Under the pieces are notes generated by a model. The model did no database searches and was not told the origin of the DNA. It saw only the letters and a list, made by a program, of their open reading frames with translations. A DNA stretch of 64,000 nt from Halothermothrix sp. (lineage in GTDB: Bacteria; Bacillota; Halanaerobiia; DY22613): contig JAENYK010000001.1 in NCBI GenBank assembly GCA_016841825.1, positions 496,001-560,000 of the forward strand. Direction: 5' to 3'. Numbering within the stretch: position 1 is the stretch's first letter; the number at the start of each line of letters is the position of its first letter. This document shows positions 6,310-64,000 of this stretch, piece by piece. The position numbers and the translations under genes are program-made.

Positions 6310-6325
6310 ACACCTTACCCCTCCG

Positions 6326-6931: not shown

Positions 6932-7040
6932 GTAAAATACCTCTTTTCTTTATTTGATACACATATATTACAGCAGCAAAATGCAGAACAGGTGCAGACG
7001 AGATAAAGTTCGGATTTTATTTTTGTTCTAATTTAATGCA

Positions 7041-7070
7041 AAATAAAAGCCATGAAGTATCCTTCATAGC
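7041..7070 (-). terminator. Terminator after the sensor kinase gene
   Basis: On the minus strand GCTATGAAG-GATA-CTTCATGGC is followed by TTTTATTTT. It lies about 90 bp downstream of the kinase stop (7157) and separates the two-component genes from the SGNH operon. Confidence 0.7.
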
Positions 7071-7156
7071 TGTTTAGCTGATAAAATATTAAATTATTTG
7101 AATAAGAGTGTCTCAAACAGGGTACATATCTTTCTTAAGAAAATATAACCAATGCT

Positions 7157-9567: not shown

Positions 9568-10028
9568 CTAACCTCCACCTATAGTTTGTCCATTGCTGGT
9601 AGAAATCCCCTCAATATTAATGAACAAATTTCATGGAACGAAAATTAGCAACATCCAATCACTCCACAATTTTTAGTGATATCGTCATATCTATGCGTCT
9701 TTAAAATTATGAACTTTATAACCATTTCCAGTTAATATATTACCATATTCCCATTGACGCGTCAACGAGGATGAGTTACCAGAAAACAAACGCAGATTTA
9801 GATAAAAAGCTCAATTGGAAGCAATCCAAATGAGCTTAGTTCTGTCAGTTCCACTTGCTAGTCAATTCACCGCTTGCCCAGAATTGTTCCCATTTACATC
9901 GTAATGCCACTACTGATTACCCTGGGCGGTAAAAATCGGATGTTCAGTAGAAAAAACGAGGTCACCATTTGTATAAGGCATCTGCTTATCTTCTTACAGT
10001 TTTCTATCACATAAAACGTACTAAATAT
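9568..10028. other. Gene-free stretch with a small ORF remnant
   Basis: Besides the terminator at 9804-9836 I see no intact gene. On the minus strand from an ATG at 9981 a reading frame (MPYTNGDLVF, then HPIFTAQGNQ) continues after TAG as WHYDVNGNNSGQAVN and after TGA as LASGTDRTKLIW. It looks like part of a decayed gene of unknown family. Confidence 0.35.
9804..9836 (-). terminator. Terminator downstream of the msr(D)-like gene
   Basis: On the minus strand AGCTCATTTGGA-TTGCT-TCCAATTGAGCT forms a stem with one mismatch and is followed by TTTTATC. It lies about 190 bp after the ABC-F stop codon and probably ends that transcript. Confidence 0.7.
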
Positions 10029-11492
10029 TTATCTTATCAGGTTTAATCTTCTATCTTTGATTTCATAAATAACATCAGCTACATTATCAATCAATCGTTT
10101 ATCGTGAGTGATAAATAAAATTGTCCCTGCATACCCTTTCATCAACATTTCCAAAGCCTCTAAGCTAGGCAGATCAAGGAAGTTACTCGGTTCATCCAGT
10201 AACAGGATATTATACCGGCCCATGAGCATTTTAGCCAGCAACAACTTAACAATCTCACCACCACTTAAAACAGATAACTTTTTGCAAATATCATTCTGTT
10301 CAAAACCCATCGAAACCAACACTGAACGAATTTCTGATACATTGTAATCACAGTTCTCCTGCATAAACTCCATGATCTCCTGATTGCAATTGTACTTGTA
10401 ACCATTTTGGGCAAAATAACCTATTTCAGCTTTAGGAGAAATTAAAATACTATCTTCACGATTCAAAATCTTTTGAATTAAAGTCGTTTTCCCCACACCA
10501 TTGCCACCGGTCAACGCAACTTTTGACCCAAGTGGGATCTGAAAAGACGCCTTTTCAAGCAGCACCTTATCTCCAAACCTTATATTAATTTCCATACCAA
10601 TAATCGGATATGGATTATGAAGTTCCAATGCTTTACTCTGTCGGAAACGAATCATTCTGGTTCTTTCCGGAGCTTCCACACCAGCCAAAGATTCAATCCT
10701 GTGTTCCATAGACTTAGCAGCATTGTATAATTTTTTTTGCTTACTTCCCGTTGTTTTTTGATGTGCCAGACGTCCACCGCTTTCGGATTTGTTTCTCTTA
10801 GTAGCACCTTTTGCTTTTTTATCTATTTTACGAGCTTTTCTTCGTTTTTCCTCCACGGCCTGTTCCAGTCGATCACGTTCTGCAACAAATTGTTCGTATT
10901 TTGCAGCCTGGCTTCTACGCTCGTCCTCTTTTTGACGAAGATATTCAGAATAATTACCCCAATATTCCGTAATTTTGCCATTTTTTAGCTCCCAAATTTT
11001 GTCTACTACCTCATCAAGAAAATAGCGGTCATGACTGATAACTAACAATGCACCTGCAAAATATTTTAACTGTCCGATTAGAAAATCAATTCCTTCACGA
11101 TCTAAATGGCAAGTAGGCTCATCTGCCAAAATGCCATGTACTTGTTCTGAAAGAGCCTGTGCTATTTTGAGTCTTGTTTCTTCACCGCCACTCATGGTCT
11201 TTATCTCTAATTGATCAACACCGAGTTTCCCCATAATTGCATAATCTTTGACTTCCTGTAAAGTTACTTCATCTAGCTGAGGGATATAGGCGAATTCTCC
11301 AAAACGGTTGATTTTACATCCCGCTGGAGTTACTTCCCCCAAAAGCACCTTAAGTAAGGTACTTTTTCCTGCACCATTTGCTCCTACCAGGCCAATACGA
11401 TCATAATCATATAACTCTAATTCATCTAAATCCAAAACATCACGCCCTTTGTATTCCACACGAACGTCTTTTGCTTTTATTATTAATTCCAT
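10029..11492 (-). CDS. msr(D): Msr(D)-like ABC-F ribosomal protection protein
   Basis: This 487-residue protein, the length I recall for Msr(D), has no membrane segments and two ABC domains: first Walker [13 protein letters not shown] with signature [12 protein letters not shown], second Walker [12 protein letters not shown] with signature [13 protein letters not shown]. They are joined by a long charged antibiotic-resistance-domain linker (about residues 180-270, rich in Lys/Arg/Glu). Local sequence strongly recalls streptococcal Msr(D), which removes macrolides from the ribosome. AGGAGG precedes the ATG. Upstream lie two leader peptides and attenuator hairpins, so expression should be macrolide-inducible. 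The mef efflux gene that normally precedes msr(D) is absent. Confidence 0.88.
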
Positions 11493-11510
11493 TTTCTTTC
11501 CTCCTGTCTA

Positions 11511-11558
11511 AAATCGCATGTTTTCATTTTCCTGTTCGCAGAGAAAACCCTGCGATTT
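11511..11558 (-). promoter_or_regulatory. Alternative hairpins in front of the msr(D)-like gene
   Basis: AAATCGCA and TGCGATTT (arms 11551-11558 and 11511-11518) can pair to a hairpin ending just before the ribosome binding site. An alternative inner hairpin CGCAG/CTGCG (11537-11554) uses part of the same arm. The two are mutually exclusive, as in attenuation switches, and lie between the second leader peptide and the ABC-F start. Confidence 0.6.
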
Positions 11559-11570
11559 AAACATGAAGGA

Positions 11571-11591
11571 TTATATGAAAATATAATACAT
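11571..11591 (-). CDS. Leader peptide MYYIFI of the msr(D)-like gene
   Basis: A six-codon ORF, MYYIFI, lies behind AAAGGGGGA and ends 78 nt before the ABC-F start. It closely resembles the streptococcal msr(D) leader MYLIFM, on which macrolide-bound ribosomes stall. The family knowledge is established; that this variant stalls is inference. Confidence 0.72.
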   Translation of the reverse strand: MYYIFI

Positions 11592-11646
11592 AAATGTTCC
11601 CCCTTTACTAATTCGATGTGAATTCTTGCAAATGACCATTCAACAC

Positions 11647-11684
11647 AAAAAAAGGCTGCAGATGAACATAATTCATATGCAACC
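11647..11684 (-). terminator. Strong intrinsic terminator between the two leaders
   Basis: On the minus strand GGTTGCATATGAA-TTATG-TTCATCTGCAGCC is a 13-bp stem with one mismatch, followed directly by seven Ts. It would stop transcription before the second leader peptide and the msr(D)-like gene unless prevented, and is probably the attenuator of the first leader. Confidence 0.82.
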
Positions 11685-11814
11685 CTAATATCTCTATTAA
11701 AATATAGGACACCGACTACTACACTATGGCAGTCATACCTAATGTCTATAATAGAATACGATTAAAATAGTACATGAATGTTCATTCTGAGAATCCAAAT
11801 AAGGCTCAATAAAT

Positions 11815-11878
11815 AAACCTAAATTTATAGGTTTTTCTTACCCTATTTTTATTTAGTTATTTATACTAAACTAAATAA
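11815..11878 (-). promoter_or_regulatory. Attenuator hairpins at the end of leader 1
   Basis: A perfect 10-bp inverted repeat TTATTTAGTT/AACTAAATAA (11849-11878) includes the last codons of leader peptide 1. A second hairpin AAACCTA/TAGGTTT (11815-11834) follows. Ribosome stalling within the leader would open the first hairpin and could change which downstream structures form. Confidence 0.6.
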
Positions 11879-11904
11879 CGGAGTCTCATTTTAATAATAA
11901 ACAT
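11866..11904 (-). CDS. Leader peptide MFIIKMRLRYLV with macrolide-arrest motif
   Basis: This twelve-residue ORF lies behind AGAGG, about 30 nt downstream of a near-consensus promoter. It contains MRLR. The Arg-X-Arg motif is the known macrolide-dependent stalling signal in ErmD leaders and in the mef leader MTASMRLR. Its stop lies within an attenuator hairpin. Stalling here should promote read-through into the msr(D)-like gene. Confidence 0.72.
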   Translation of the reverse strand: MFIIKMRLRYLV

Positions 11905-11935
11905 TCTAATACCTCTTTTCTAAACATTTGCCTTT

Positions 11936-11964
11936 AGTATAACACATCTAGAAATGATTAGCAA
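11936..11964 (-). promoter_or_regulatory. Promoter of the leader-msr(D) transcript
   Basis: TTGCTA (11959-11964) and TATACT (11936-11941) are separated by 17 bp on the minus strand. The first leader peptide starts about 32 bp downstream of the -10 box. Confidence 0.75.
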
Positions 11965-11984
11965 TACCCTATATTTTGAAGCTT

Positions 11985-12140
11985 GATCACGCAATCTTCC
12001 ATCCCTTTGCCATCTCCTGAATTTTCCAGAGTTGCGAATATAAGCCTCTTTTTCCGGAAGCAGCGAATGGGTACCCTGCTCTACAAGACTTCCTTTGTCA
12101 AAAACAAGAATTTGATCTGCGGTCTGAATGGTACGTAAAT
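11985..12140 (-). pseudogene. Fragment of an exporter-type ABC ATPase C-terminus
   Basis: On the minus strand the residues TIQTADQILVFDKGSLVEQG followed by THSLLPEKEAYI match the end of MsbA/MdlB-type ABC domains, normally (I)xxADxIxVLxxGxxxExGTHxxLL. No Walker A or signature remains. It is a remnant lying immediately upstream of the msr(D) promoter. Confidence 0.6.
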
Positions 12141-12177
12141 GATGTCATAGTCCATCTCATTACGCACTTTCCAAAAA

Positions 12178-12744
12178 TCAGTTCTTCAGGCTCCCGGCAT
12201 ACACCGCCATCTGATACAATGCGACGATCCATGTATCGATGGTTCCTTCTTCCATTCCCGTTCGCACAATAACCGTGTTATTTTCTGGTGAGATATAGAG
12301 GTACTGCCCATGATTGCCATGGGCGAAATAGTCATATCCGCCCTTCTCATTAGCAAAGCTATACCACATGTACTGATATCCGATACCGCTGGCATTCATA
12401 GGTTCCGAGGCAATAATCGACCTGTCGAGCCACTCCTCGCTTACAAGGGTTTGCCCATTCCATTTACCGCGATGCAAGAGCATACTGCCAATCTTTGCAA
12501 AATCGATGGACCTGAAATTCAAGCCGCTCTCCATCTTTTCAAATCCGGATTTTTCGCTGTCAAGACTCCACGAGGCGTCGCTCTGAGCACCGACCTTTTC
12601 CCAAATCTTCGTCCGTAAATATTCGGAAACGCTCATGCCTGTACTGCGCTCCAGAATCATACCCAGCAGCAGAGGATGGTAGTTGTGGCACTTAATGAAC
12701 ATAACAGATATCTTTGGGTAATGGATAAATCTTTCATGGGTCAT
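12178..12744 (-). pseudogene. N-truncated serine beta-lactamase-like hydrolase
   Basis: The 188 codons match the C-terminal half of class C-type (PF00144) serine hydrolases: YHPLLLGMILERSTGMSVSE, DFAKIGSMLLHRGKWNGQTL, VSEEWLDRSI, and YFAHGNHGQYLYISPENNTV with the HGxxG box. The N-terminal SxxK nucleophile motif is missing, and the YxN position is altered (KCHNYHP). The apparent start is only an internal Met without a good ribosome binding site. It is a degraded gene, probably formerly a peptidase or esterase. Confidence 0.7.
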
Positions 12745-50922: not shown

Positions 50923-51048
50923 CCTGTTTTTGGATTTGTGGGGAGATTCTGGCGAACGTATGTACGTGTGATCTCCTCAAACTTACTATTTCCGTGTTGG
51001 AGGGGAATTTTCCTGCTGGTTGGGGAATTTTTTTGGGGGGGAAGGAAA

Positions 51049-51089
51049 AAGCGAAGTTCTGTTACTTAAACTGTGACAGAACTTCGCTT
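51049..51089. terminator. 14-bp perfect hairpin with T-run on the minus strand
   Basis: AAGCGAAGTTCTGT (51049-51062) and ACAGAACTTCGCTT (51076-51089) are perfectly complementary with a 13-nt loop. Read on the minus strand it ends CGCTTTTTCC and looks like a terminator, shielding pcrA from upstream transcription. Confidence 0.65.
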
Positions 51090-51499
51090 CATAAAAGCAT
51101 GAGTTTTGTGAGGTAAATAATGTGATGTTTAACTCTTTGATCCACTATGTATGGAGAAAAAGAACCAATGTTATGATAACTACACTCTAAAGTCTAAAAA
51201 TTAAATAAGCTAGGCGATTACACCATTTATCTCCAACACAAAAAGGATATTAGATTCTCCATATATGCTCAGTTATCAGTTCTCGAACATAATCTAACTT
51301 AATGACTGCTCTCATTTTTCTTAACTAATAAAATCTAATGATGAACTCAGTAGAGAAAAGAAAATCAATCTTGTAGCTCTATTACTTCCCGGAATTACTC
51401 CACCATCGCAAAGAATTACTCTTTGATGCAATTTGATGCCACTTTTAATTCTTTTAAATTCAGCCACTTATATTGAGAGAAACACAGACTCATTATTAA
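51090..51499. other. AT-rich gene-free stretch
   Basis: No ORF with a ribosome binding site and no repeat was seen. It is the transition between the pcrA-ligA core and the accessory segment. Confidence 0.4.
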
Positions 51500-51852
51500 A
51501 CATCAATTAGATAAATACTACCTAATCCCTGTCTTAGCACATTAAAACCCATGGTAGAGCCATATTTCTTTAATATGTTGTTGAATAAGGGTTCAGTAAT
51601 TTCAGTAGGTAAATCTTTTAATCTACTCGAAAGTTGGACTGGGCTTATAGATTCAAGACCAAGTAATTTTTTAAAATTATCATCATTTAGTTGATTGTAT
51701 CACGTAATCCTTTGTGTAGATGCAACTGAGCAAAAATGAATAATTGGATGGTTTTGAGCTTTTTAGCATACTTATCTGCATGATTGATAAGTTGTAAATC
51801 AAATTAGTTGAAATAGTTAAAAAAATGTGGTTTTTGTTATATCTTTGTCCAT
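51500..51852 (-). pseudogene. IS4-type transposase N-terminal remnant
   Basis: From an ATG at 51852 (MDKDITKTTF) the fragments YQIMQISMLKSSKPSN-like, then after frameshifts NDDNFKKLLGLESISPVQLS, SRLKDLPTEITEPLFNNILK and KYGSTMGFNVLRQGLGSIYL, match the N-terminal part of IS4-type DDE transposases (SISxxQLSRRLxDLP, IDxS next to the first catalytic Asp). The catalytic core and inverted repeats are absent. It shows past transposition at the edge of the accessory region. Confidence 0.65.
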
Positions 51853-52075
51853 AAGGATATCTCCTTATTATTAGGGACTTGGGCAAAGACTATCCAATCT
51901 CTAATTATAAAGAGTTTTTTCTTTTTATTCAATCAAATTTGATCAATTTGGGACTTGACACTTCATTATTTTTGTTATGAAACGCTAGTGTTATATATTA
52001 TACATCATATAGCTTTAAACTGATAACATTGTCTTATCATTCTGAAAATACAGAAACAAACTATGCTATTAACAA
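51853..52075. other. AT-rich intergenic stretch
   Basis: No supported gene or clear terminator before the radical SAM gene stop at 52076. Confidence 0.35.
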
Positions 52076-53746
52076 CTAAAATGTGTCAAATTTAGTTTTC
52101 CCTAACTCATTAGATATATTATTGATATATATCAACATTTTTCTAAAAGAATCTATAATTGGTTCATTATAGCTTAAATAATTGTGATTAAAGGTTGCTT
52201 TAATACCTTCGAAGCTTGTTTCACTCCAACCATCCTCAGCCAAATCTAAAATCTGCATGAAAAAATTATATATCTCATCCCTAGCAGCAGCTAAATATCT
52301 ATCTACTTTATCTTCAAAAGGTATAATTGTTTCATTTATCTCTTTAAATTTTCCAAGATATTTCCGTTCAAGTTTTCGCAATATAATATTTTTTTTATAT
52401 TCAATATAATTTATCATATTAGATAAATACTGAAGTTTTACGTTATTTAGAGTTAATATTTTTTCATAAATCGTTTGTACCTTCGAATCACAAAAATCAT
52501 AATGATAAACCTTATAATGTTGATAACCTTCCCGTACCAATCCATCTGTTATTACCTGTCTAGTTAGATTAGAACCAGGGTAAAGTGCAACCTTAGAAAA
52601 CAAATGTATTATTTTAAAAAAATTAATATTTTTAAGGAAAATTGCATTATTTCTTAATTCATTTACAGTTGAGTATGGGTGATAAGTAACAAACCCTGAT
52701 GGAGTAACATCTATCCTCAGCTCACGTAAAAAATTAATTGCTTCATAACTTTGATTTAATTTAATGCCTTTTTTATAGACCTCCAAACCTGAAGTACTTC
52801 CAGCCTCCAAACCCATCTCTACCTGCACTAATCCAATCTCGCGAAGAGTTTTTACTAATTTTTGATTATCCATAATTGAATCTACTCGTGTCAAAATATA
52901 GAAGAAGCACTCTATGTTTCTTTGTTCCATTTCACTAATAAAATTCTGAACCCAATCTATCCCTCTTGGCGATGAATTAATAAAATTTAAATCACATAGA
53001 TTTATTGTATCGTGAATATTTTTGTTTTTCCCATATCTATTAATTAAATATTCAATTTCATCAACAATTTTTTTAGGAGAACGACACCTCCATTTACTTC
53101 CTCCACCTAAAGAAAAAAAACTATTAGCATTGCAAAAACTACAAGTACCTAAACAACCTCTCGAGCAAAGGACATTTAATGTTGCTTTAATATTATTTTG
53201 TATTCCTTTTTCTAAACTAATATGAACTGGTTCTTTAATAGAATCTATATCTACGATGGCTTCTCTATCGGGATTTTTAATAATTGAATCGCCTGAACGA
53301 TAATAAACCCCCTTTACTAAGATGGGTTCTATAGATTTTTCAATATTGTTCACTAATTCAACAATTGTCTGCTCTCCTTCTCCTCTTACAACTGCATAGA
53401 TTTCTGGTGAATCTTTTAAAATCTTTTCAGCAGCAAATGTAGCATGTTCTCCTCCAAAAATTAATTTTATAGATGTGTCATAGTAATATAATGCCTTAGC
53501 AATAGATAATGCAGATGAAAAATTCGAATAAACTGCTGATAATCCAATAATATCATATTTCCCTTTTTTCAATTTTTCGACCACCACTTTATCTTCCAAA
53601 CCTAACATATGAGCATCAATGATATGAACATCGTGGGAAGCTTCTTTTAAAGCTCCTCCGATATAAGCTAAACCTAAGTGTTCATCCCCAGTATAAAATC
53701 CCAAAGATAGTTCCTCTATTTTAGGATAGACCAATGCTACCTTCAT
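52076..53746 (-). CDS. B12-binding-type radical SAM protein (second of a pair)
   Basis: This 556-residue protein has an N-terminal cobalamin-binding-like Rossmann domain: LGLAYIGGALKEASHDVHII, DAHMLGLE (a DxHxxG motif) and KLIFGGEHATFAAEKIL. The radical SAM core has VLCSRGCLGTCSFCNANSFF (CxxxCxxC) and VQVEMGLEAGSTSGLEVYKK. The C-terminal ~180 residues are helical, rich in Lys/Ile and unlike known domains. AAAGGGG precedes the ATG. It is the last gene of the peptide-rSAM-MFS-rSAM locus and is paralogous to 55009-56550. It likely methylates or otherwise modifies an unactivated carbon; the substrate may be the upstream 28-residue peptide. Confidence 0.85.
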   Translation of the reverse strand: MKVALVYPKIEELSLGFYTGDEHLGLAYIGGALKEASHDVHIIDAHMLGLEDKVVVEKLKKGKYDIIGLSAVYSNFSSALSIAKALYYYDTSIKLIFGGEHATFAAEKILKDSPEIYAVVRGEGEQTIVELVNNIEKSIEPILVKGVYYRSGDSIIKNPDREAIVDIDSIKEPVHISLEKGIQNNIKATLNVLCSRGCLGTCSFCNANSFFSLGGGSKWRCRSPKKIVDEIEYLINRYGKNKNIHDTINLCDLNFINSSPRGIDWVQNFISEMEQRNIECFFYILTRVDSIMDNQKLVKTLREIGLVQVEMGLEAGSTSGLEVYKKGIKLNQSYEAINFLRELRIDVTPSGFVTYHPYSTVNELRNNAIFLKNINFFKIIHLFSKVALYPGSNLTRQVITDGLVREGYQHYKVYHYDFCDSKVQTIYEKILTLNNVKLQYLSNMINYIEYKKNIILRKLERKYLGKFKEINETIIPFEDKVDRYLAAARDEIYNFFMQILDLAEDGWSETSFEGIKATFNHNYLSYNEPIIDSFRKMLIYINNISNELGKTKFDTF

Positions 53747-53772
53747 AAATTATCAACCCCTTTAAATTCAAC

Positions 53773-54969
53773 TTAATGATTATATTTTATACTAATTAAT
53801 AAAATTGCTGCCAATGCAATAAAAACAGAACCAGCAATCAAAAATATTAAATTATAATAATTTAAGCCTATTAATATTCCTCCAAGATAGGTGCTCAAGG
53901 AATCTCCAAGATTAAAACTTGTATTCATAAAACCTGAAGATGTCCCATGGTTTTCTGGCTCAATGTTTTCAAAGATATAATTTTGAAAAAGTGGATTTAC
54001 CAAATTCATTAATCCACTGATTAATACTATTAAAACTATATGTAGTAATGTTAAATTCCATACTATCATCAAAGCGTAAGCAACTGCAATAATAAAAAAT
54101 CCTACTACAATTATTTTCTCTAGAGAAAACTTCTTTACCAACAAAGAACCAGAAAAAGCCATAATTGCAGAAAAAATTTGAATCATTGACATTAATACAC
54201 CAATATATAAAGCGTTTATCATCAACCTTTTTGCAAAATATAAATTTACATAAGGGGACAAAATAACGGTAAAACCTAATAAAAAAAATGTCAAAATTAA
54301 AAAAGAATAAACCATTATATTTTCTTTTTTAAATAAATCCATATACCAACTTTGGTCCATTTCTCTCTTCTTTTTAGTTTTCTTGCCAAAAACATATTCT
54401 TTCTCCTCAATATAGAACAGAGGTATAACTGAGATAATATAAAATAGTCCAGCAAAAATTAAACCTGTCCTATATATTTGACTGACCAGATTAATCCTAG
54501 CTAAATAGCCACCTAGAATTGAACCTAAAGTTAAAGAAGCTAAACCAATTGCTTTTGCAGTACTAAATAGAGCTGATCTCTGCTCATTTGCACCATACTG
54601 CATTAAAAATGGCCCAGATATACACATCAAAGCGGAAAAACTCAATCCATATAGTATTGCTAAACAAATTAATCCTACTTGATCTACAACGAAACTTTCT
54701 AAAAGAAAAGTCATTCCAGCCAACAACCCAGAGATTATTAAAATTTTTTTCTTTGAAAATCTGTCTATCAAAACACCTACAGGAATACTTCCGGCCGCCA
54801 TAGCTAAATTTCCAACAGCCAGAAAAAGACCTAAGAATTTTTCCGAGATACCCACATTTATTATGTATAGGTTAAATAAAACAAGAAATATTCCTAAAGC
54901 AATATTCATTAAAATCTTTGAAAAAAAATAAAAATTGATATTACGATTAAAATTAAGTATTTTAAACAT
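53773..54969 (-). CDS. MFS transporter between two radical SAM genes
   Basis: This 398-residue protein has 12 hydrophobic segments. The loop GVLIDRFSKKKILI is the MFS A-motif (GxLaDrxGrkk-type); LQSxY-like FQNYIFENIEPENHGTSSGF lies in the C-terminal half. AAGGAG precedes the ATG. Its tight location between two radical SAM genes (26 and 39 bp) suggests that it exports the pathway product or gives self-protection. Confidence 0.88.
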   Translation of the reverse strand: MFKILNFNRNINFYFFSKILMNIALGIFLVLFNLYIINVGISEKFLGLFLAVGNLAMAAGSIPVGVLIDRFSKKKILIISGLLAGMTFLLESFVVDQVGLICLAILYGLSFSALMCISGPFLMQYGANEQRSALFSTAKAIGLASLTLGSILGGYLARINLVSQIYRTGLIFAGLFYIISVIPLFYIEEKEYVFGKKTKKKREMDQSWYMDLFKKENIMVYSFLILTFFLLGFTVILSPYVNLYFAKRLMINALYIGVLMSMIQIFSAIMAFSGSLLVKKFSLEKIIVVGFFIIAVAYALMIVWNLTLLHIVLIVLISGLMNLVNPLFQNYIFENIEPENHGTSSGFMNTSFNLGDSLSTYLGGILIGLNYYNLIFLIAGSVFIALAAILLISIKYNH

Positions 54970-55008
54970 CCATCTTGTCTCCTTTTCAAAATATTAAATT
55001 ATACTATC

Positions 55009-56550
55009 CTATTGATCTAGCTGTCGAAAGACATCTCTTATTTTATTAATAAATATTTCTCTTTGTATACATAAAGTCGAAAGTTTGTTTTTATCGACTT
55101 TATCAATAACTTGAATTGCATAATCATACGTAGCTTTGTTGATAACTCTAAAGCTAAGATTAAATCTTTGCTTATAAGTTTCTAGTACTAAAAGCTTATT
55201 ACTTTCAATCTCTTTACTCTTTGTTTTAAAATATTTATTAATACCAGAAACAAAACCTAGATATTTTTGAACAACAGGTTCCGCTACTATTTTCATATAT
55301 TCTTCATAAATTATCCCAACTTTTTTATCAACGAATTTATATCCATTTGGATATGGATTAAGAATGTTTATGTTTCCATCCTTAATTAATCTATGCTCCA
55401 TCATACTTCCTGGAAAAATTTCCAATTTTTGACTTAGTCTACCTAATAGATTTTGTCCAAGGTCATAATAAAATTTCAAATTTTCTTTTAACTCTGAAAT
55501 TACTATATATGGATTAAACAAAATAAAACCACATGTCGGATCAATCAAATCGTGTTTCGTTAATAATTTATAGATATCATAGTTTTGCTTAACACTAACT
55601 TTCTTGTTATAAATTTCAAGAGTAGTTTCAGTTCCACTTTCCAATCCAATAAAGACATCAATTAGTCCTGCTTTTTTCAATAAAACAATGATTTCTTCAT
55701 CCGCTAATGTTAAACTGTTAGCACGCAAGTTTATTTTGAAATTAATCTGTAATTTTCTTCTTAATACTTCAGTTGCGAAATCCCGAGCTCTTTCTTTACT
55801 TTCGAAAGTTGGTATAATGAAAATATCATCATTAAAGTTAAAATAACTTAAATTGTAATTATTAATAATTAACTCAATTTCTTCAATAATACTTTTAACA
55901 GTTCTACTTCTCCAACGAGGATTAAACATTGGAGTACTGCAGAATGAACATTTACCAATACACCCTCTACTTGATGAAATACATGCAATTGCAAATGAAT
56001 GCTTTTTTAATTGTTCTTCAAGAACATCTCTCGCTGGGAAGGGCAAATTATTAATATCTGGCATTGATCTAGCTTTATTTTTAATAATTCTATCTTTTTC
56101 TTTAATCCACATACCTTTACACCCTATTAAAGTTTGATTTGATGAAAGACAATTAAGAAGTTCTACCAACGTTTCTTCTCCTTCACCACGGCAAACAAAA
56201 TCTATTACATCTATTTGAAGTAATTTTTCCGCTAAAAAGTGGGCATGATGACCTCCCAATAAAACTCGAATATTTGGATTGGAGACTTTTAATTTTTTTG
56301 CCATAGAAATTACTTTATCAATTATTGAATAAGTTGTAGTAAAACCAACTACATTCGGTCTAAAGTCTTTAACTTTAGTAAAAATTGCATCTATGGATAA
56401 ATTTTGTGCATCCCCATCTAACAATAAAGTTTCATAACCAGCTTTTCTTGCACTTGCAGCAAGATAAGCTAATCCAATATGCTCACTATAATGAATGTCA
56501 TATGTCTCATCTTCCGGCATATTTAATAAAGCAAGTCTCATCTTTTGCAT
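55009..56550 (-). CDS. B12-binding-type radical SAM protein (first of a pair)
   Basis: This 513-residue protein has a B12-binding-like N-terminus (IGLAYLAASARKAGYETLLL, DGDAQNLS where the DxHxxG His is absent, VLLGGHHAHFLAEKLL) and a radical SAM core with ISSSRGCIGKCSFCSTPMFN (CxxxCxxC) and VFIGLESGTETTLEIYNKKV. A helical C-terminal region of about 150 residues follows. GGGAGG precedes the ATG. It starts about 70 bp after the 28-residue gene, behind a terminator-like hairpin. It shares layout with 52076-53746 but is only moderately similar by eye. Confidence 0.85.
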   Translation of the reverse strand: MQKMRLALLNMPEDETYDIHYSEHIGLAYLAASARKAGYETLLLDGDAQNLSIDAIFTKVKDFRPNVVGFTTTYSIIDKVISMAKKLKVSNPNIRVLLGGHHAHFLAEKLLQIDVIDFVCRGEGEETLVELLNCLSSNQTLIGCKGMWIKEKDRIIKNKARSMPDINNLPFPARDVLEEQLKKHSFAIACISSSRGCIGKCSFCSTPMFNPRWRSRTVKSIIEEIELIINNYNLSYFNFNDDIFIIPTFESKERARDFATEVLRRKLQINFKINLRANSLTLADEEIIVLLKKAGLIDVFIGLESGTETTLEIYNKKVSVKQNYDIYKLLTKHDLIDPTCGFILFNPYIVISELKENLKFYYDLGQNLLGRLSQKLEIFPGSMMEHRLIKDGNINILNPYPNGYKFVDKKVGIIYEEYMKIVAEPVVQKYLGFVSGINKYFKTKSKEIESNKLLVLETYKQRFNLSFRVINKATYDYAIQVIDKVDKNKLSTLCIQREIFINKIRDVFRQLDQ

Positions 56551-56571
56551 AGAACCTCCCTAGATAAAACC

Positions 56572-56598
56572 AAAATCTAGGTCGAAACCTAGATTTTT
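56572..56598 (-). terminator. UUCG-capped terminator-like hairpin after the 28-residue gene
   Basis: On the minus strand AAAATCTAGGT-TTCG-ACCTAGATTTT is a perfect 11-bp stem with a UUCG tetraloop, followed by GGTTTTAT. It lies between the peptide gene and the first radical SAM gene. Partial termination here would make peptide mRNA much more abundant than enzyme mRNA. Confidence 0.75.
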
Positions 56599-56618
56599 GA
56601 TCCTTTATTAAGTATAAT

Positions 56619-56705
56619 TTAAAACTTTTCTTCAATTTTTTTAATCAGATCATAAAATTCTTTACAAGTAGTCAAACCATTTAAAGCCTTTGCATTCATC
56701 TTCAT
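56619..56705 (-). CDS. 28-residue peptide, putative precursor of the rSAM-MFS locus
   Basis: GGAGGGG lies 7 nt before an ATG at 56705. The product starts MKMNAKALNGLTTCKEFYDL and ends IKKIEEKF. It has a single Cys, one Tyr and two Phe, and an amphipathic Lys/Glu-rich C-terminal helix. A consensus promoter precedes it, a UUCG hairpin follows, and two B12-type radical SAM genes and an MFS gene lie downstream in the same direction. This arrangement is that of a RiPP precursor. I recognise no known precursor family. Confidence 0.7.
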   Translation of the reverse strand: MKMNAKALNGLTTCKEFYDLIKKIEEKF

Positions 56706-56748
56706 TTAAATTCCCCTCCTCTTCTTCAAAAAAGTAAGTATTTTCTTT

Positions 56749-56777
56749 ATTATAATATTATTTGTATAATATGTCAA
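56749..56777 (-). promoter_or_regulatory. Consensus promoter of the peptide-rSAM locus
   Basis: TTGACA (56772-56777) and TATAAT (56749-56754) are separated by exactly 17 bp, a perfect sigma-A promoter. The spacer contains the inverted repeat ATATTAT-ACAA-ATAATAT, a possible operator. The predicted transcript start is about 37 nt before the peptide ATG. Confidence 0.85.
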
Positions 56778-56984
56778 GCATTCAATTATAATTATTTTCT
56801 GTTTTTAAATATTATCATAAGATCAAGTTTGACAGTTAATAGTTAAAAATCACTGTTTGAAAAGCTAAGAACCTTGATTTTACCTAATTCTTATTTTAAA
56901 AAAGCAAAATGTTTATAGCTACAATAATTTTGAATTTTTACTAATAAATCCATAAAATTAATTTTCTCATAACCCCTACCAAAA

Positions 56985-57110
56985 CCTATAAACACGTGTA
57001 CCTTTCAAAAACAGATTGATTCAAGCTAACCCTACCCTCCCTGACAGAATACTTCTTATTTTCCACACTCCACACCAATACCATAACACCAATCATTCCT
57101 AAAATACTGG
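56985..57110 (-). repeat. Partial direct copy of the 61.8-kb ABC permease 3' end
   Basis: The minus strand reads LGMIGVMVLVWSVENKKYSV, matching VGMVGVMVLVWSVGNKKYSA at the end of the permease gene 61856-62650. The non-coding flank is shared as well (AAACACGTGTACCTTTCAAA here, AAACACGTATCCTTTTCAAA near 61815). The copy is in direct orientation 4.8 kb away and carries substitutions and indels. Confidence 0.8.
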
Positions 57111-57316
57111 ATAAAGTATATCAGAAAAAGTGTTTCAACTAACTATGGAAAGAACCCATTTGACGCTTACAGAACAATCCAGGATAGACTACACAATTTT
57201 AGATTACACTTGTCCACATTTGAACTTTTTGACCTCAAAGTTTCTTTTTTCGTGCAAAAAACATTGCTTTTAGAGAAGTATTTCATTTTTTCTATCCAAA
57301 AATTGAATTATGAAAT

Positions 57317-57456
57317 TTACTTACCTGATAACACAACGCCAATCAAACACTTCATAGCAAGTAGTGTTAGAAGACCTGGACCTACATTAATCATTATTAT
57401 CAAAATCATTCCGAAATCTGTATATGGCTTAAAATATTTGCATAGCTTTTAATCAT
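57317..57456 (-). pseudogene. Small hydrophobic protein downstream of the ABC permease, frameshifted
   Basis: ATG at 57456 behind GAAGG overlaps the shifted permease end. After one frameshift the frame reads LCKYFKPYTDFGMILIIMIN and VGPGLLTLLAMKCLIGVVLS, then GK and stop. It would be a roughly 46-residue single-span membrane protein. The family is unknown; its position suggests an accessory or immunity peptide of the ABC system. Confidence 0.45.
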
Positions 57457-57528
57457 TGATGACCTTCTCTCTCCGTGTAAATACTTTCTTTTTCACCAGC
57501 AAACAAGTTAGAACTATACCAGATATAA

Positions 57529-58923
57529 CTAATAAAGATACTTTTCCTGTAAAATTTTAGAACTAAATGGGCTATATGTAAGAATTACAAAAGGATTAAC
57601 CATATATGGCAATACCTTTCTTACTGAATACAATATAAACCATACACTGATTGATATTAAAATACCAATATTTTCATTTTTTATAAAAGTAATTAATAAC
57701 AAATTTAGTGACACCATAAGCAATAAATTCGGTACAGTTGCTAAAATCACTCTCTGCGTCTGAAAACTGTCAAGTTTAAATAAAATTATTACTAAAACCG
57801 TATAAAAAACAACAGTGAACAAACAAACTGCAATAAAAATAATACTTCGATAACTAAATTGTTTGCTCCTGGCCTTTGGAATTATTTTGACCATACTCTC
57901 AATGTTTACATCCCGTTCAACTGCTGTAATGCTTCTAACTAAAGGTATTATAGTTATAGGAAAGATAAACTCTGACACTGCTAAAATCACTGGGTAAAAA
58001 GACTCAAGATTGCCAGCTTTTGAAAGGGCAACGACAGCCACAAAAAAAATTACTGCCGAAGGAACTAAAAAAATACTAAATATCCTAAAATTATAAGCTA
58101 TCTTATATTCGTAGCGAGCCATGCTTCGCGCTCGACCTCGACTGCGGTCAGTATGATAGTTAAATTTCAACCCAACTTTTTTGCCAATCCGCAAGTTATC
58201 ATAAATTTTAGCTGAGCTAATTGCTAATATAATACTGCTAATCAAGAAACCAATTATTTTTAGGATATTGATTGGATTCGTTAAGGCATCAAAGACAGTC
58301 AATGGTACATATATCTTAACAATATAATTAATAAATACTGCTAAAATGAACCACATAAAAATGCTAAATGTATAGTATAATATAAACTTTTTTCCTTCAA
58401 CTAAACTACTAACAAAATAATAAATCAGAACATATAACGCAATATGTGGCAATAACCTGATTATACCTTCGACTAATGAATATCCAAAGATATGGATAAA
58501 TTTAATTTGTAGCATTGGATATTTTACTTTCAATACAATATTACCTATAATAGATCCAAACATACCAAATAACCATAGTGAAAATACTAAATTGCAAATT
58601 CTCGCTAAAATTAAATACATTGAATTAAGGGGAATGATATAACTTAACTCTTTAACATTTTCATGTGAGTTAAGATATCCATAAATAATAAATATTGAAA
58701 AGAGAACTGATAATATAGAACAGTCTAGTACTGAACGTCGAACCCATTCTAAATCAGCAGATAATATTCCTTTACTCACAATTTCGGTGGTTAAATAAGT
58801 ACCTTTAATTAAAAAACTTCGGCCAGCACCATACACCAGATAAGATATTACAGCAGTGACACATAAATATGGTAATAGATTTTTATAAATTAGCCTGGCT
58901 TCATTTTTGATATTTATCCACAC
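57529..58923 (-). CDS. ABC-2-like multi-span permease, C-terminus frameshifted
   Basis: This 464-residue protein has about ten to twelve hydrophobic segments (LLPYLCVTAVISYLVYGAG, IIGFLISSIILAISSAKIYD and others) and no ATPase motif. It starts with GTG behind GAGGAGG, directly after the ATPase gene. Past SSKIL a one-base change ends the frame at 57529; in the other frame the protein would continue TGKVSLLVISGIVLTCLLVK and KKVFTRREKVIND to a stop at 57449, restoring a final helix and basic tail. The transporter substrate is unknown. Confidence 0.75.
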   Translation of the reverse strand: MWINIKNEARLIYKNLLPYLCVTAVISYLVYGAGRSFLIKGTYLTTEIVSKGILSADLEWVRRSVLDCSILSVLFSIFIIYGYLNSHENVKELSYIIPLNSMYLILARICNLVFSLWLFGMFGSIIGNIVLKVKYPMLQIKFIHIFGYSLVEGIIRLLPHIALYVLIYYFVSSLVEGKKFILYYTFSIFMWFILAVFINYIVKIYVPLTVFDALTNPINILKIIGFLISSIILAISSAKIYDNLRIGKKVGLKFNYHTDRSRGRARSMARYEYKIAYNFRIFSIFLVPSAVIFFVAVVALSKAGNLESFYPVILAVSEFIFPITIIPLVRSITAVERDVNIESMVKIIPKARSKQFSYRSIIFIAVCLFTVVFYTVLVIILFKLDSFQTQRVILATVPNLLLMVSLNLLLITFIKNENIGILISISVWFILYSVRKVLPYMVNPFVILTYSPFSSKILQEKYLY

Positions 58924-59801
58924 CTAAATTACCTCCTCTCCTACCATCTTTAAATATGCTTCTTCCAGATTAGGTATTATTTCGGTAAAGTTTTTACCAG
59001 GCTTATCTTTGGACAAAATCCGTAGATAGTGATGTTCCTTTTCCACAATATTTGAAGTTATTTTGCATTTCTGTGACAAATCCATGTATTGATCCATTGT
59101 CACAGTACCACTCCATACAAAACCTTTAGATTGCTCCAATAAATCTTTAATCGCACCATTAAAAATAATTTGACCTTTTTTTATAATAGCTAAACGACTA
59201 CTAATATTCTCCACATCCGCAACAATATGTGTAGACAAAATAATCGCCCTATCGGTTGCTAAAGAGGATAAAAAGTTTCGAAATCTAATTCTTTCTTCAG
59301 GATCTAAACCTGCTGTAGGCTCATCAACAATAAGTATTTTCGGATCATTTAGTAAAGTAATGGCAATCCTAAACGCTGTCTCATACCACCAGATAAAGTT
59401 GATACTTTAACATACTTTTTTTCTTGTAAACCGACAACGTTCAAAAGCCTTTCAATCAAAGCAGTTCTTCTTTTAAAATCTTGATGCCCCCTGAGCTGAG
59501 CAAAATAATCCAATTCCTCAGCTACTTTCAATGAAGGGTATAATCCGAATTCTTGCGGCAAATAGTTGATAATATGTCTAACCTTTTCAATATTTTGCTT
59601 ACTATCTAAAGATATTCCATCCACCAAAATTTGACCACTCGTTGGTGCAAGTAAGCCAACCAGCATTTTCATCATTGTAGTCTTTCCTGCACCATTTGGT
59701 CCTAATAGAGCAAAAACTCCTGTGCCAATCTCCAGGTTTAAATCTTGAATCGCAGTAACCTGTCCAAATCTTTTTGTTACATTTCTCAAACTAATATTCA
59801 C
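58924..59801 (-). pseudogene. ABC transporter ATP-binding protein with a frameshift
   Basis: The N-terminal ORF (59349-59801) has Walker A LLGPNGAGKTTMMKMLVGLL and signature LSGGMRQRLG, then shifts frame after RLG. The other frame continues IAITLLNDPKILIVDEPTAG (Walker B), LSTHIVADVENISSRLAI (H-loop) and ends at 58924. Loss of a single base at GGAATT, now GGATT, explains it. The joined product of about 292 residues would be an ordinary exporter ATPase for the downstream permease. Either the gene is recently dead or the base was mis-called. Confidence 0.82.
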
Positions 59802-59967
59802 TTAAACCCACCTCTTTTTTAATTGAGTAGATTTTCGAGAACTCGTAACTTAACTAATACCAATAACCTGGTACATTAGCTTCATGGGCTTTACCCCCAC
59901 TTCTCGACAACTTCATACAGCAAAATTAGTAATTACAGTAGTTTGTACCAGTAATTTTACGCATACA
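59802..59967. other. Intergenic stretch upstream of the ABC operon
   Basis: No gene and no convincing promoter elements are visible. Confidence 0.3.
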
Positions 59968-60125
59968 TCACAAAATCTCTCCATATTGCTCAAAATATAT
60001 TTTTTGAATTGTTTCAATCTCATTTTCCAAATTATCATTATATCCTAAACTCCCGTTTTCAATTATAATAATATTATTTGCAATTTCGCTTATAAAATCT
60101 AAATTATGGCTACTAAATTAATATT
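59968..60125 (-). pseudogene. Fragment of another ABC ATPase C-terminus
   Basis: The minus strand reads SSHNLDFISEIANNIIIIEN and then GSLGYNDNLENEIETIQKIY to a TGA at 59968. SSHNLxxIxxIAxxIxIIxxG is the H-loop region of bacteriocin/lantibiotic-type ABC ATPases. The rest of the gene is missing. Confidence 0.55.
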
Positions 60126-60471
60126 TTTAAATTTTACCATATTTGCATACTCTCCTTTCATTTTAACATCTCTCAACTTAATATTTTGATTTTCTATATT
60201 ATCCAAATAATCGTTTCTTACTCCACTTTCAATCAAAGATCTTCATGATAGAATAACACATTTTTATTAATAATACACTAATTTTGATATATGCAAATAT
60301 ATTAAACAAATTTCAGCAAATACCTTTTTATTTGACTAACTTTTTTCATAGTACTAAAATTACACGAATGGCAAGGGAAGCACAACACTGAATGTGTTAA
60401 GTTTCTATAGAGCATTTCATATCTCCCTTCGTCAAAAAATTAAATTTTTTTTTAAATTTGTCTTAAAATTA
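60126..60471. other. AT-rich stretch without a gene
   Basis: I see no coding sequence. It contains only the region leading to the TPR gene promoter. Confidence 0.4.
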
Positions 60472-60500
60472 TTGCTTAGAATCAATTATCATGGTATAAT
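60472..60500 (+). promoter_or_regulatory. Promoter of the TPR-peptide pair
   Basis: TTGCTT (60472-60477) and TATAAT (60495-60500) are separated by 17 bp on the plus strand, about 90 bp before the TPR start codon. Confidence 0.7.
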
Positions 60501-60592
60501 TAAGAAGTATCTAATAAATTGGTTATAATTACATCTTTAGGAATTAATAATAAATGTTAATCATGACTACTTATTAGGGAGGATGTGAGTTA

Positions 60593-61526
60593 ATGGATGA
60601 AAATTTAGCATTATCAGCAGAAATTTATTATCAAGATGCAATCAATTCACTCAAAGAAAAGGATTTAGTCAGTTAATGTGGGAAGTGCCAGAATTTTGGC
60701 TAATGGTGATAACGATTTGTTATCAAAAATAGCTTTTTTAAAAGCTAGAGGACTTTATCTACTTCAAGAGTATGATAAAGCACTGTCTGCTATTGACAAA
60801 GCTATGAAATCTAATCAAGGTGCTGATGTAATTAGGTTACAGAAATATCGTGGATTAATTTGGGGGTATCAGGGGAGATTTGCAGAAGCGATTAATTTAT
60901 TCTCTGATTTGCTAGAAGAAACAAATGATTATATTTTACTCACTGAGTTGTATAGCAATATCACCTGGGCAAATTTAGCTTTGTACAGAACAGAGGAAAA
61001 AAATAAACTTTTAGAGGAAGCAAAAAAATATTTAGATTTACTTGATGACAACAGAAAAAAAAGAATATTGTTAAACTATGGTGAATATCATTTTTGTAAT
61101 AAAGATTATAATCAAGCGATAGAAATCATCGAACGTGCTATTCCGTATTGTACCGAAGAAGAGATGCCTTTAGTTTATAACAACTTGGCTGAATTACATT
61201 TCCAGTTTGGTGATAGGTTCAAAACTGAGGAATACTTACATAAGGCAGAAGTTCTTGCTGAAAAATACAGTAATTATTTAGAGGTTGCAAAATCCCTATA
61301 TACACAGGGGTTATTAGAAATTAAAGACGATGAATGGTTAAAGGCTACCGATTCATTATATGTATCACTAAAATATTTTATTAAAACCAATGCTATATCC
61401 TACGCTTTCAATTGCTTTATTCAAATTCTAGATATATCTCACCAATTAGAAAATGATTGTGTGCTTTCTATCAAAAGAAGTGCTAAAGACTTTTTCTCCG
61501 AAACACCTTTTTACAATAAAATGTAA
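60593..61526 (+). CDS. TPR-repeat protein (Rap-like), with an apparent frameshift
   Basis: GGGAGG precedes ATG at 60593 (MDENLALSAEIYYQDAINSL), but this frame stops at 60676. From 60678 a second frame continues for 282 residues of TPR-like helices: LKARGLYLLQEYDKALSAID, YRGLIWGYQGRFAEAINLFS, LLNYGEYHFCNKDYNQAIEI, VYNNLAELHFQFGDRFKTEE and LYTQGLLEIKDDEWLKATDS. A +1 shift would join the two at SNVGSARILANG. No HTH is visible, so it resembles Rap more than PlcR/NprR-type sensors. A secreted-looking 48-residue ORF follows 21 bp later. It is the only rightward operon in this part. Confidence 0.72.
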
Positions 61527-61547
61527 TATATATTAGGGGGGATTATT

Positions 61548-61694
61548 GTGAAAAAAGTATTTTGTTTTTTGTTGATGACTTTGATTTTTGTCGAAGGAAC
61601 CTTCATGATTTTAACTGATCAACCTTCTGCTGTGCCTAATGTTTCTGGAGAGATTTATACGACAAATAATTGGCCCGATCCGGATGAAAATTAA
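61548..61694 (+). CDS. 48-residue secreted peptide precursor (Phr-like)
   Basis: GGGGGGA lies before GTG at 61548. The product has a basic start and a hydrophobic signal-like segment (MKKVFCFLLMTLIFVEGTFM), then ILTDQPSAVPNVSGEIYTTN and an acidic tail NWPDPDEN. It follows a TPR gene by 21 bp and is closed by a strong terminator, as with phr genes after rap genes. The mature peptide would come from the C-terminal part. Family unknown. Confidence 0.68.
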   Translation: MKKVFCFLLMTLIFVEGTFMILTDQPSAVPNVSGEIYTTNNWPDPDEN

Positions 61695-61715
61695 TTTATC
61701 TACATTTTAAAAACA

Positions 61716-61770
61716 AAAGTAAAGCGTTTTTGAAACCTACAAAATATTCCAAAACGCTTTACTTTATTTT
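61716..61770 (+). terminator. Terminator of the TPR-peptide operon
   Basis: AAAGTAAAGCGTTTT (61716-61730) and AAAACGCTTTACTTT (61751-61765) form a perfect 15-bp stem followed by ATTTTTAAT, 21 bp after the peptide stop. Confidence 0.82.
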
Positions 61771-61855
61771 TAATTATAATACTCCGTTTTCATAGCACTG
61801 CCCAAACCCAATAAACACGTATCCTTTTCAAAAACAGAGTGACTCAAACTACCCT

Positions 61856-62650
61856 CTACCCTCCCTGAGCAGAATACTTCTTATTTCCCACACTCCACAC
61901 CAGTACCATCACACCAACCATACCGACAACCCACACAAACTGCTTACCCAATTCTGCATACAGCAGACTCCCACTCAACTTACCCTGCAAAATAGACACC
62001 GGAACATAATAGATATACTGAAAAGGGAGATTCTCAGCTATAACTCGCAAAAACCCCGGAAATAGGGCAATGGGGAATATCTGTCCAGATAGAACTCTAA
62101 TCACATTCCACAAATTATCACGCAAGGTTAGAATATTCTCAACCCAGAAAGTCAATGACCCAACATAGAAAAACAATGCATACATAATCACCATACCAAA
62201 AAAGGCAGATAGTACACTGAGTACTATTCTCAGCACACTCAATTTGATGGTTATTGGAATAATTAATCCGAAAACACTTAAAAAAATGAATCCGGCGGCA
62301 AATCCCCAGATAAAATAGCCTATCTTAGTAAAAAAACCATATAAGGGATAGTACAATGGTTTAGACAAATATAGATTCAAACGTCCTTGATTAATATCTG
62401 ACCATACCTCATAAGCAGTAATTCCCACCGGCATTATAGCACTCTCGAATATCTTGAGTAGAAAATAATAAGAAACCATATCATTGAATGTATAGTTAGC
62501 AATAGCTGCCTTGCTTTGAAAGACGAATTTCCAGATGAAGTAAATAATCAATAATTGGAGTGGTAGATTAACCAATTGCCCAACAAAATTCAAACTATAT
62601 TCCTTCCCTTTCCTCAATTCAATCCAGATTAACCGTAAATATTTCTTCAT
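61856..62650 (-). CDS. ABC-2 family permease (DUF990-like exporter, subunit 2)
   Basis: This 264-residue protein has six hydrophobic segments and the pattern of ABC2_membrane_6 (DUF990-type) permeases: NFVGQLVNLPLQLLIIYFIW, SDINQGRLNLYLSKPLYYPL, FYVGSLTFWVENILTLRDNL and GQIFPIALFPGFLRVIAENL. It pairs with the preceding permease. Its last codons are duplicated at 56985-57110. GGAGG precedes the ATG, 2 bp after the partner gene. Confidence 0.85.
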   Translation of the reverse strand: MKKYLRLIWIELRKGKEYSLNFVGQLVNLPLQLLIIYFIWKFVFQSKAAIANYTFNDMVSYYFLLKIFESAIMPVGITAYEVWSDINQGRLNLYLSKPLYYPLYGFFTKIGYFIWGFAAGFIFLSVFGLIIPITIKLSVLRIVLSVLSAFFGMVIMYALFFYVGSLTFWVENILTLRDNLWNVIRVLSGQIFPIALFPGFLRVIAENLPFQYIYYVPVSILQGKLSGSLLYAELGKQFVWVVGMVGVMVLVWSVGNKKYSAQGG

Positions 62651-62652
62651 TT

Positions 62653-63447
62653 TTATCCTCCATTCGCCTCATACCGTGTTAATCCCATATTCCAGGTCAG
62701 TTTAAACAGATAAAGTACTATCGCCGAAAACACAATGAATTTTAGTACAAAGTCCAACTTCAAACTATCTTTGTTCAGGAAAATCACCGCTGGATAATAT
62801 GAAATAAAGGCTACAGGTATAATGTAAGTTAACACCAGCTTAATTTTTTCGGGAAATATTGATAGTGGATATTGTTTACTATCAGCTAATCCAAATATTA
62901 GCGAACGAAAGACTTCTATCTGTCCTACCCAAAAAGCTAAAAATGTAACAATCCCATATAAACAGTTATAGATGAACACACCCCAAACCAAAATAATTAA
63001 CGAATATAAGACATTCATCGCATTAATTGAGATATCATACCGCAGAACAATAGTTACGATAAGAACTATACTGACGATCAACTCCTCAATAAAGTAAATA
63101 ATTGAGACCCTTTCAAAAAGCACTGCAAAAAGCGTATTAATTGGCCGAACCAGAAATTTGTCAAGACCACCCTGTACTATGGTATATGGCAGATCACGAA
63201 AACCAAAGAATATTCCCCCAATACTTTCCCCCACAAAAGTAATACCTGTATATAGAGCTAATTCTGGAAAACTCCAATCCCCAAAAGATTGAATATGACT
63301 CAACAACGTGTACCAAAATATCAGAACAAAAGAAAAATTAAATATTAAATGCACCAAAGTCATCACAAATTCAAAGTTAAAAGTCTTTATCTTATGCCAG
63401 GAAATAATCATAAACCGATAAAGCAGTTTCGAATAATATTTAACCAT
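62653..63447 (-). CDS. ABC-2 family permease (DUF990-like exporter, subunit 1)
   Basis: This 264-residue protein has six hydrophobic segments with LALYTGITFVGESIGGIFFG, YTIVQGGLDKFLVRPINTLF (the conserved DxxL.RP loop) and FLAFWVGQIEVFRSLIFGLA. GAGGAGG decides the ATG at 63447; the longer frame lies in the ATPase gene. It forms a heteromeric exporter with the neighbour and the ATPase 63440-64000. The substrate is unknown. Confidence 0.85.
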   Translation of the reverse strand: MVKYYSKLLYRFMIISWHKIKTFNFEFVMTLVHLIFNFSFVLIFWYTLLSHIQSFGDWSFPELALYTGITFVGESIGGIFFGFRDLPYTIVQGGLDKFLVRPINTLFAVLFERVSIIYFIEELIVSIVLIVTIVLRYDISINAMNVLYSLIILVWGVFIYNCLYGIVTFLAFWVGQIEVFRSLIFGLADSKQYPLSIFPEKIKLVLTYIIPVAFISYYPAVIFLNKDSLKLDFVLKFIVFSAIVLYLFKLTWNMGLTRYEANGG

Positions 63448-64000
63448 TGGAAACCTCCTCTTTATCAGGTTTCTCATACATATCTCGAATTATCTCTTCT
63501 AAACTAAGGTAATTAATATTTATATCAAAAATCTCATTCCGATTTAACAAATTATTTATTGTAGTTGTGAGCTTGTCTATAGGAACTTTGATCAATGACT
63601 CAAACTTATTTGAGGATAGAGACATAGCATAATTTCGGGGAATGATTTTGCTTATATCAAAATCTTCGTGATGTTTGACCTGAATGATCTTATATTTGTC
63701 TCTACTTTCGATCTGATCTAAATTCCCATCATAACAAACTCTACCTTTATCCAGGATTATGATTCGCTTACATAATCTATCTATATCATTTAGATCATGA
63801 GTTGTCAAAAATATTGTTGTATTTAATTCAGTGTTAAGAAAAGTTAAAAAATCTAATATTTTTTGTTTCGCTATTATATCCAGACCCAATGTTGGTTCAT
63901 CTAAAAATAAAATTTTCGGATTATGTAATAAAGAAGCAACGAATTCACAACGCATTCTCTGACCTAAAGATAACTTTCTAACCGGAATTTTTAAAAGTGA
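63440..64000 (-). CDS. ABC transporter ATP-binding protein, C-terminal part
   Basis: The frame is open to the right edge. It enters with PVRKLSLGQRMRCEFVASLL (signature LSLGQRMR), then KILFLDEPTLGLDIIAKQKI (Walker B) and FLTTHDLNDIDRLCKRIIIL (H-loop), and ends with a regulatory tail EEIIRDMYEKP. LSLGQ in place of LSGGQ is usual in ATPases of DUF990-type exporters. It overlaps the permease start by 8 nt. The Walker A region lies outside the window. Confidence 0.88.
   Translation of the reverse strand, partial: SLLKIPVRKLSLGQRMRCEFVASLLHNPKILFLDEPTLGLDIIAKQKILDFLTFLNTELNTTIFLTTHDLNDIDRLCKRIIILDKGRVCYDGNLDQIESRDKYKIIQVKHHEDFDISKIIPRNYAMSLSSNKFESLIKVPIDKLTTTINNLLNRNEIFDININYLSLEEIIRDMYEKPDKEEVSNG

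Follow-up and report, generated by a model that had tools for sequence, protein, structure and literature searches.

A short peptide gene beside paired B12-dependent radical SAM genes in Halothermothrix sp. as a probable RiPP-like pathway of an undescribed family

Within a 64,000-nt stretch of the Halothermothrix sp. genome (the window), we found an operon that combines a 28-codon gene with two B12-dependent radical SAM genes and a transporter gene, and whose product is probably a RiPP-like compound from an undescribed family. The peptide very probably represents a new family of ribosomally made and chemically modified peptides, since enzymes of this kind also stand beside a related small peptide in unrelated bacteria. 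From these arrangements we infer that the peptide is an enzyme substrate, that it is modified at carbon atoms and that a product is formed and exported. B12-radical SAM enzymes functionalise carbon atoms beyond the reach of ordinary chemistry and, to our knowledge, few of them have a known peptide substrate.

Layout of the window operon

All parts of the operon lie on the minus strand, with gaps of 68, 39 and 26 nt from the peptide gene to rs1, from rs1 to the MFS gene and from there to rs2:

56749..56777 (-): promoter-like TTGACA-17-TATAAT, matching the consensus at 12/12 positions
56713..56720 (-): Shine-Dalgarno sequence AGGAGGGG, 7 nt 5' of the peptide ATG
56619..56705 (-): ORF of 28 codons, precursor-like 28-aa peptide MKMNAKALNGLTTCKEFYDLIKKIEEKF
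56572..56597 (-): hairpin in the interval between the peptide and the first enzyme
55009..56550 (-): rs1, B12-binding and radical SAM protein, 513 aa (Pfam PF02310 and PF04055; CxxxCxxC at 197-204)
53773..54969 (-): MFS transporter, putative exporter, 398 aa (Pfam PF07690)
52076..53746 (-): rs2, B12-binding and radical SAM protein, 556 aa (Pfam PF02310 and PF04055)

An earlier note on this DNA had described a perfect promoter, a 28-codon gene with a strong ribosome binding site (RBS), a peptide with a single Cys, one Tyr and two Phe, and then a B12-type radical SAM protein, an MFS transporter and a second B12-type radical SAM protein in one direction with short gaps. Each of these is present, and between 51600 and 57600 no other site matches the sigma-70 promoter consensus at 12/12 positions. 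Among the intergenic ATG ORFs that are 20-60 aa long, only six in the whole 64 kb have a comparably strong RBS, the 28-mer included. The hairpin, absent from that description, was equalled in stability by none of 200 shuffles (z = -4.0) and is a probable leaky terminator (attenuator); imperfect terminators damp the expression of downstream genes in RiPP clusters (PMC7113386). The peptide leader folded as a whole was no better than its shuffles (z -0.09), leaving the hairpin alone to stand out, and an Rfam search of the operon region returned no known RNA element. Neither an M16 peptidase nor a recognised peptide-binding domain was found in the window operon.

The G+C content is 29% at 51-57.5 kb (29-32% over 51000-64000) versus 42% at 40-50 kb, as expected of acquired DNA, and the AT-rich 51000-64000 stretch is likely to have been acquired. 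Upstream of the operon, an ABC ATPase at 58924-59801 (-), adjoining a 464-aa membrane protein (57529-58923), appears split over two ORFs (59801-59349 and 59238-58924) and is therefore probably broken or frameshifted. A remnant at 56986-57096 (-), MIGVMVLVWSVENKKYS..., resembles the C-terminal end (VGMVGVMVLVWSVGNKKYS) of an ABC-2 permease at 61856-62650, which points to duplication or recombination immediately upstream of the operon.

A related peptide beside the enzymes in unrelated bacteria

Used on its own in a genome-wide scan, rs1 retrieved no relative. Relatives were obtained when rs1 and rs2 were aligned with a Dethiobacter homologue and this alignment was run against 85,000 species genomes, and from a tblastn search of plasmid records. 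Full-length relatives are present in D. metallidurans (Desulfosporosinus; L120), Deltaproteobacterium bin617 (L122), the HOT.MB2.46 MAG (L123 and L161) and Burkholderia stagnalis (L164). These four distant loci were selected by enzyme similarity alone, and in 4/4 a short ORF with a strong RBS touches an enzyme of the same clade. The earlier note had proposed a co-conserved short ORF at other loci as its own test; such ORFs were found at all four, and the four peptides are homologous. We define them here as the MAINLMAP family, with the N-terminus M-A-x-[NS]-[LM]-x-A-P.

The D. metallidurans operon consists of an M16 peptidase, a radical SAM enzyme, a 35-aa peptide beginning MAINLMAP (MAINLMAPLSDKKVVKLAENLSKKIDQKLAEKESK), a second radical SAM enzyme, a transposase, a third radical SAM enzyme, AzlC and AzlD. 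The transposase insertion aside, B. stagnalis has the same order (M16, radical SAM, peptide, two radical SAM, AzlC, AzlD), so that one arrangement is common to a Firmicute and a betaproteobacterium; its 55-aa peptide, MAINLMAPKGNDQNVKLSTEIWKKLNEVK..., also begins MAINLMAP and is annotated as WP_155628734.1. The HxxEH motif is intact in both M16 proteins. The first eight residues of the two peptides are identical while 5/8 codons differ, a mark of selection on the protein sequence. Bin617 has a 37-aa peptide, MAINLAAPKGDKKTVVLAANLAKKLSRK..., beginning MAINLAAP and placed behind the radical SAM gene.

Immediately before the radical SAM array of HOT.MB2.46 lies MAKSMMAPLADKRIVDL..., with an RBS, a GTG start codon and the beginning MAKSMMAP; a profile of the other three peptides picked it from 5,622 small ORFs (E 7e-4). 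The number of enzymes in the array may reach about nine, provided that its two contigs adjoin; the contig ends carry complementary halves of a single enzyme, which suggests that they do. An MFS gene lies near the array end on the second contig, and BLAST gave no homology between its product and the MFS protein of the window operon. This MAG is labelled Acetobacteraceae, and the phylum draw around it yielded Bacillota genomes identical to those drawn for the window. The Dethiobacter contig (L091) carries radical SAM, IS, radical SAM, AzlC and AzlD, and ends upstream of these.

As a control, we scanned 46 other B12-radical SAM loci for a short ATG ORF with a strong RBS. Only three of the 46 had a qualifying ORF, all belonging to another peptide cassette family of the window's own genome, leaving 0/43 outside those cassettes. 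By the same rule 4/5 of the family loci (the window and the four distant ones) qualify, or 5/5 if the GTG start in HOT.MB2.46 is allowed. The general hallmark of RiPP pathways, a precursor gene beside modifying enzymes and conserved together with them, is thus found in the window and at four distant loci. Hairpins also occur 3' of the peptide genes of B. stagnalis (z -6.2) and D. metallidurans (-5.5), with a weaker one in bin617 (-2.0).

Searches around G442, G443 and G444 gave no further clear members except lone, peptide-less Desulfobacterota homologues. Six such distant homologues (L197-L202, from the phylum of G443; 531-546 aa) have no recognisable adjacent peptide, and several lie, as judged by eye, beside a CtpA-like protease gene. 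Viral contigs contained no enzyme relative, and two MAINLMAP pattern matches in them look like chance.

Place of the window peptide in the family

The window 28-mer is probably a divergent member of the family, judging by its sequence. With N-termini anchored, it shares M1, N4, A7 and LxKKI with the MAINLMAP peptides and lacks A2, P8 and the MAP motif; in this comparison it scored best among the 604 small ORFs in the window, with an equally good result from 0.09% of shuffles (p 0.0009). A local profile search with the four-peptide HMM did not single it out. Its similarity to the other peptides is weak.

The 28-mer as query against 398 genomes of the phylum gave chance hits only, and a second copy in its own genome was not found. 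The only close relative of the operon, in the same-family genome G001 (L029, 7530-11365 (-)), is a decayed copy with the same gene order. Its rs1 lacks the first 236-246 residues, both radical SAM genes contain stops or frameshifts, and a transposase stands upstream at the expected peptide site, where a transposase-associated deletion removed the peptide; the MFS gene is intact and its product 54% identical to that of the window. Because this operon is dead and its peptide gone, with no close orthologue of the 28-mer to be read there, it neither confirms nor refutes the window peptide.

Enzymes rs1 and rs2

Both enzymes combine PF02310 and PF04055 with conserved CxxxCxxC cysteines, as is characteristic of class B (B12-dependent) radical SAM proteins. 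The earlier note had recognised no known precursor or combination of enzyme families matching this locus. In NCBIfam, rs1 and rs2 reach 163 and 178 bits against the BchE equivalog cut-off of 481, 128 and 118 against 650 for HpnR, 90 and 91 against 282 for TIGR03975, and 110 and 98 against 750 for ApyD (NF050148). Since they fall far below the cut-off of every family matched, no curated family claims them. In the tree, rs2 lies within the clade of peptide-adjacent enzymes (support 97/96 for the wider clade and 90/84 with Dm1, Bs1 and bin617); rs1 has no firm placement.

AlphaFold models of rs1 and rs2 have pLDDT values of 87 and 92. The best PDB match of the rs2 model is OxsB (5ul4; VIA Z 28, 502 residues, rmsd 4.3, 18% identity), and the predicted fold is OxsB-like over almost the entire chain. 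A candidate reading of the rs2 C-terminal domain as a new peptide-binding fold was dropped, as the OxsB alignment extends through it.

Proposed pathway and alternatives

In the pathway that we propose, the peptide would be the substrate of the B12-radical SAM enzymes, with the conserved N-terminus (MAINLMAP in the family, MKMNAKAL in the window) as core and the variable, charged, helical C-terminus as a follower held by the enzymes. The earlier note had counted the helical Lys/Glu tail as part of what is modified and exported; because the conserved part is the N-terminus, a role as recognition follower is more likely for this tail than one as product. Unactivated carbons of the core would be acted on by rs1 and rs2, most simply as C-methylases, and across the family two to about nine B12-radical SAM enzymes would modify core carbons. 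In the two full operons the M16 peptidase would remove the follower, a step left to a general protease in the window, and the small product would leave through MFS or AzlCD. The hairpin would let the peptide be produced in excess over the enzymes. The MFS exporter of the earlier note recurs in one relative operon and is not conserved, AzlCD taking its place in two. The note's RiPP-like interpretation is, overall, supported.

AzlCD is an amino-acid exporter and suggests a very small product in those two operons, which makes a PQQ-like use of the peptide a serious variant: the peptide could serve as carrier or scaffold during the assembly of a small amino-acid-like molecule or cofactor that is afterwards excised, as for PQQ and pearlins. 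As a variant of the pathway above, its probability overlaps with that of the main explanation; taken by itself we consider it rather unlikely. The very short peptides and the pairing of AzlCD with an M16 peptidase of intact HxxEH in two operons speak for it, but the operons show no PqqB/C-like or peptide-aminoacyl ligase gene as a second type of building or releasing enzyme, and the window and HOT.MB2.46 have MFS in place of AzlCD.

It is improbable that the short ORF is instead a regulatory leader peptide, whose translation would control the hairpin and enzyme expression while the enzymes act on a lipid, a porphyrin-like compound or another small molecule. The terminator-like hairpin does lie directly 3' of the ORF, and the best family scores are those of BchE and HpnR, enzymes of tetrapyrroles and hopanoids, but these scores are well below half of the cut-offs. 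The 28-mer is not rich in any one amino acid, and across phyla the N-terminus of the peptide is conserved at the protein level. The position of the peptide between the first and second enzymes in D. metallidurans and B. stagnalis, and behind the enzyme in bin617, would also be odd for a leader. Even more improbable is a chance ORF in front of a small-molecule pathway of two enzymes that has no relation to the MAINLMAP systems: the weak similarity to the other peptides and the HMM miss would fit it, but a perfect promoter and strong RBS are aimed at this ORF, it ranks first in the anchored alignment, rs2 groups with peptide-adjacent enzymes, and unrelated loci outside the own-genome cassettes have no qualifying ORF.

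Comparison with known systems

Bottromycin has an N-terminal core and a C-terminal follower (PMC10885120), and its bot/btm clusters encode several class B cobalamin-dependent radical SAM methyltransferases and an MFS exporter (PMC7113386). The RiPP-like pathway proposed here shares the multiple class B enzymes, the MFS gene in the window and, as we infer, the core and follower order. The precursor sequence differs, the fuller operons have an M16 peptidase and AzlCD, and the radical SAM enzymes reach no cut-off of a curated RiPP B12-radical SAM family. No gene for a YcaO cyclodehydratase or a PurAH-type amidohydrolase was found, with all ORFs of the window operon (by Pfam) and of the D. metallidurans operon accounted for and B. 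stagnalis assessed by annotation. The window pathway is thus like bottromycin in architecture and not a member of that class.

A tiny precursor, radical SAM enzymes and, in two relative operons, an M16 peptidase recall the PQQ system, whose PqqF is an M16 peptidase as well. PQQ is made from a tiny precursor by a radical SAM step first and PqqF/G processing afterwards (PMC8326336). Differences are that PqqE is a SPASM enzyme without a B12 domain and that PqqD, PqqB and PqqC were not seen in the operons here. TIGR03975 (RiPP maturation radical SAM C-methyltransferase) and ApyD share the B12-binding and radical SAM composition and act on ribosomal peptides, whereas rs1 and rs2 score far under both cut-offs. 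OxsB, which acts on a nucleotide, is similar in fold to the rs2 model at 18% identity, and a common fold shows no common substrate.

Other radical SAM peptide loci

The window's own genome also contains three paralogous cassettes, each with a B12-radical SAM gene, a SPASM-type radical SAM gene and a 33-39 aa ORF with AGGAGG:

L031:8934-9053 (+): short ORF MINKYWNLEEYNFGEL...
L033:7742-7861 (+): short ORF MIDKMWELDNLDFGDL...
L032:8292-8393 (-): short ORF MVNKFWNLDQMEV...

Their short ORFs share a leader and vary in the tail, which suggests a second RiPP family. In L031 and L033 the SPASM enzymes score 245-261 bits with TIGR03913 (GDL-motif peptide maturase), a resemblance that stays below the cut-off of 592. 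Elsewhere in this genome (contig C22, 284000-296000; L034), five B12-binding radical SAM genes form an array beside an ABC transporter ATPase, interleaved with two proteins of ~110-125 aa that appear PqqD-like by eye. Locus L037 of G017 (6044-12467) carries a B12-radical SAM gene followed directly, as read by eye, by an M16-like peptidase and then by a methyltransferase-like ORF, a SPASM-like radical SAM protein and a PqqD-like protein, and is possibly another peptide pathway with an M16 enzyme.

Novelty and significance

A search of the open-access literature gave no description of the M16, AzlC, B12-radical SAM and peptide combination. What is new is the peptide family and the operon type, thinly spread across phyla; RiPPs with B12-radical SAM enzymes are already known as a kind. 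More tentatively, such RiPP-like pathways may have spread horizontally and may use between two and about nine B12-radical SAM enzymes to rebuild roughly the first eight residues of a tiny peptide, with M16 freeing a product of a size for AzlCD; non-canonical amino acids, small antimetabolites or a cofactor would then be made by a ribosomal route.

The family ranges over Desulfosporosinus, a Deltaproteobacterium, Burkholderia and a fourth MAG, with a divergent form in the window. Its conserved eight-residue putative core and follower, with up to about nine B12-radical SAM partners, offer a defined, bench-testable substrate set and a motif for genome mining. AzlCD and M16 hint at an amino-acid-sized product, which, if true, would join RiPP chemistry to small-molecule biosynthesis.
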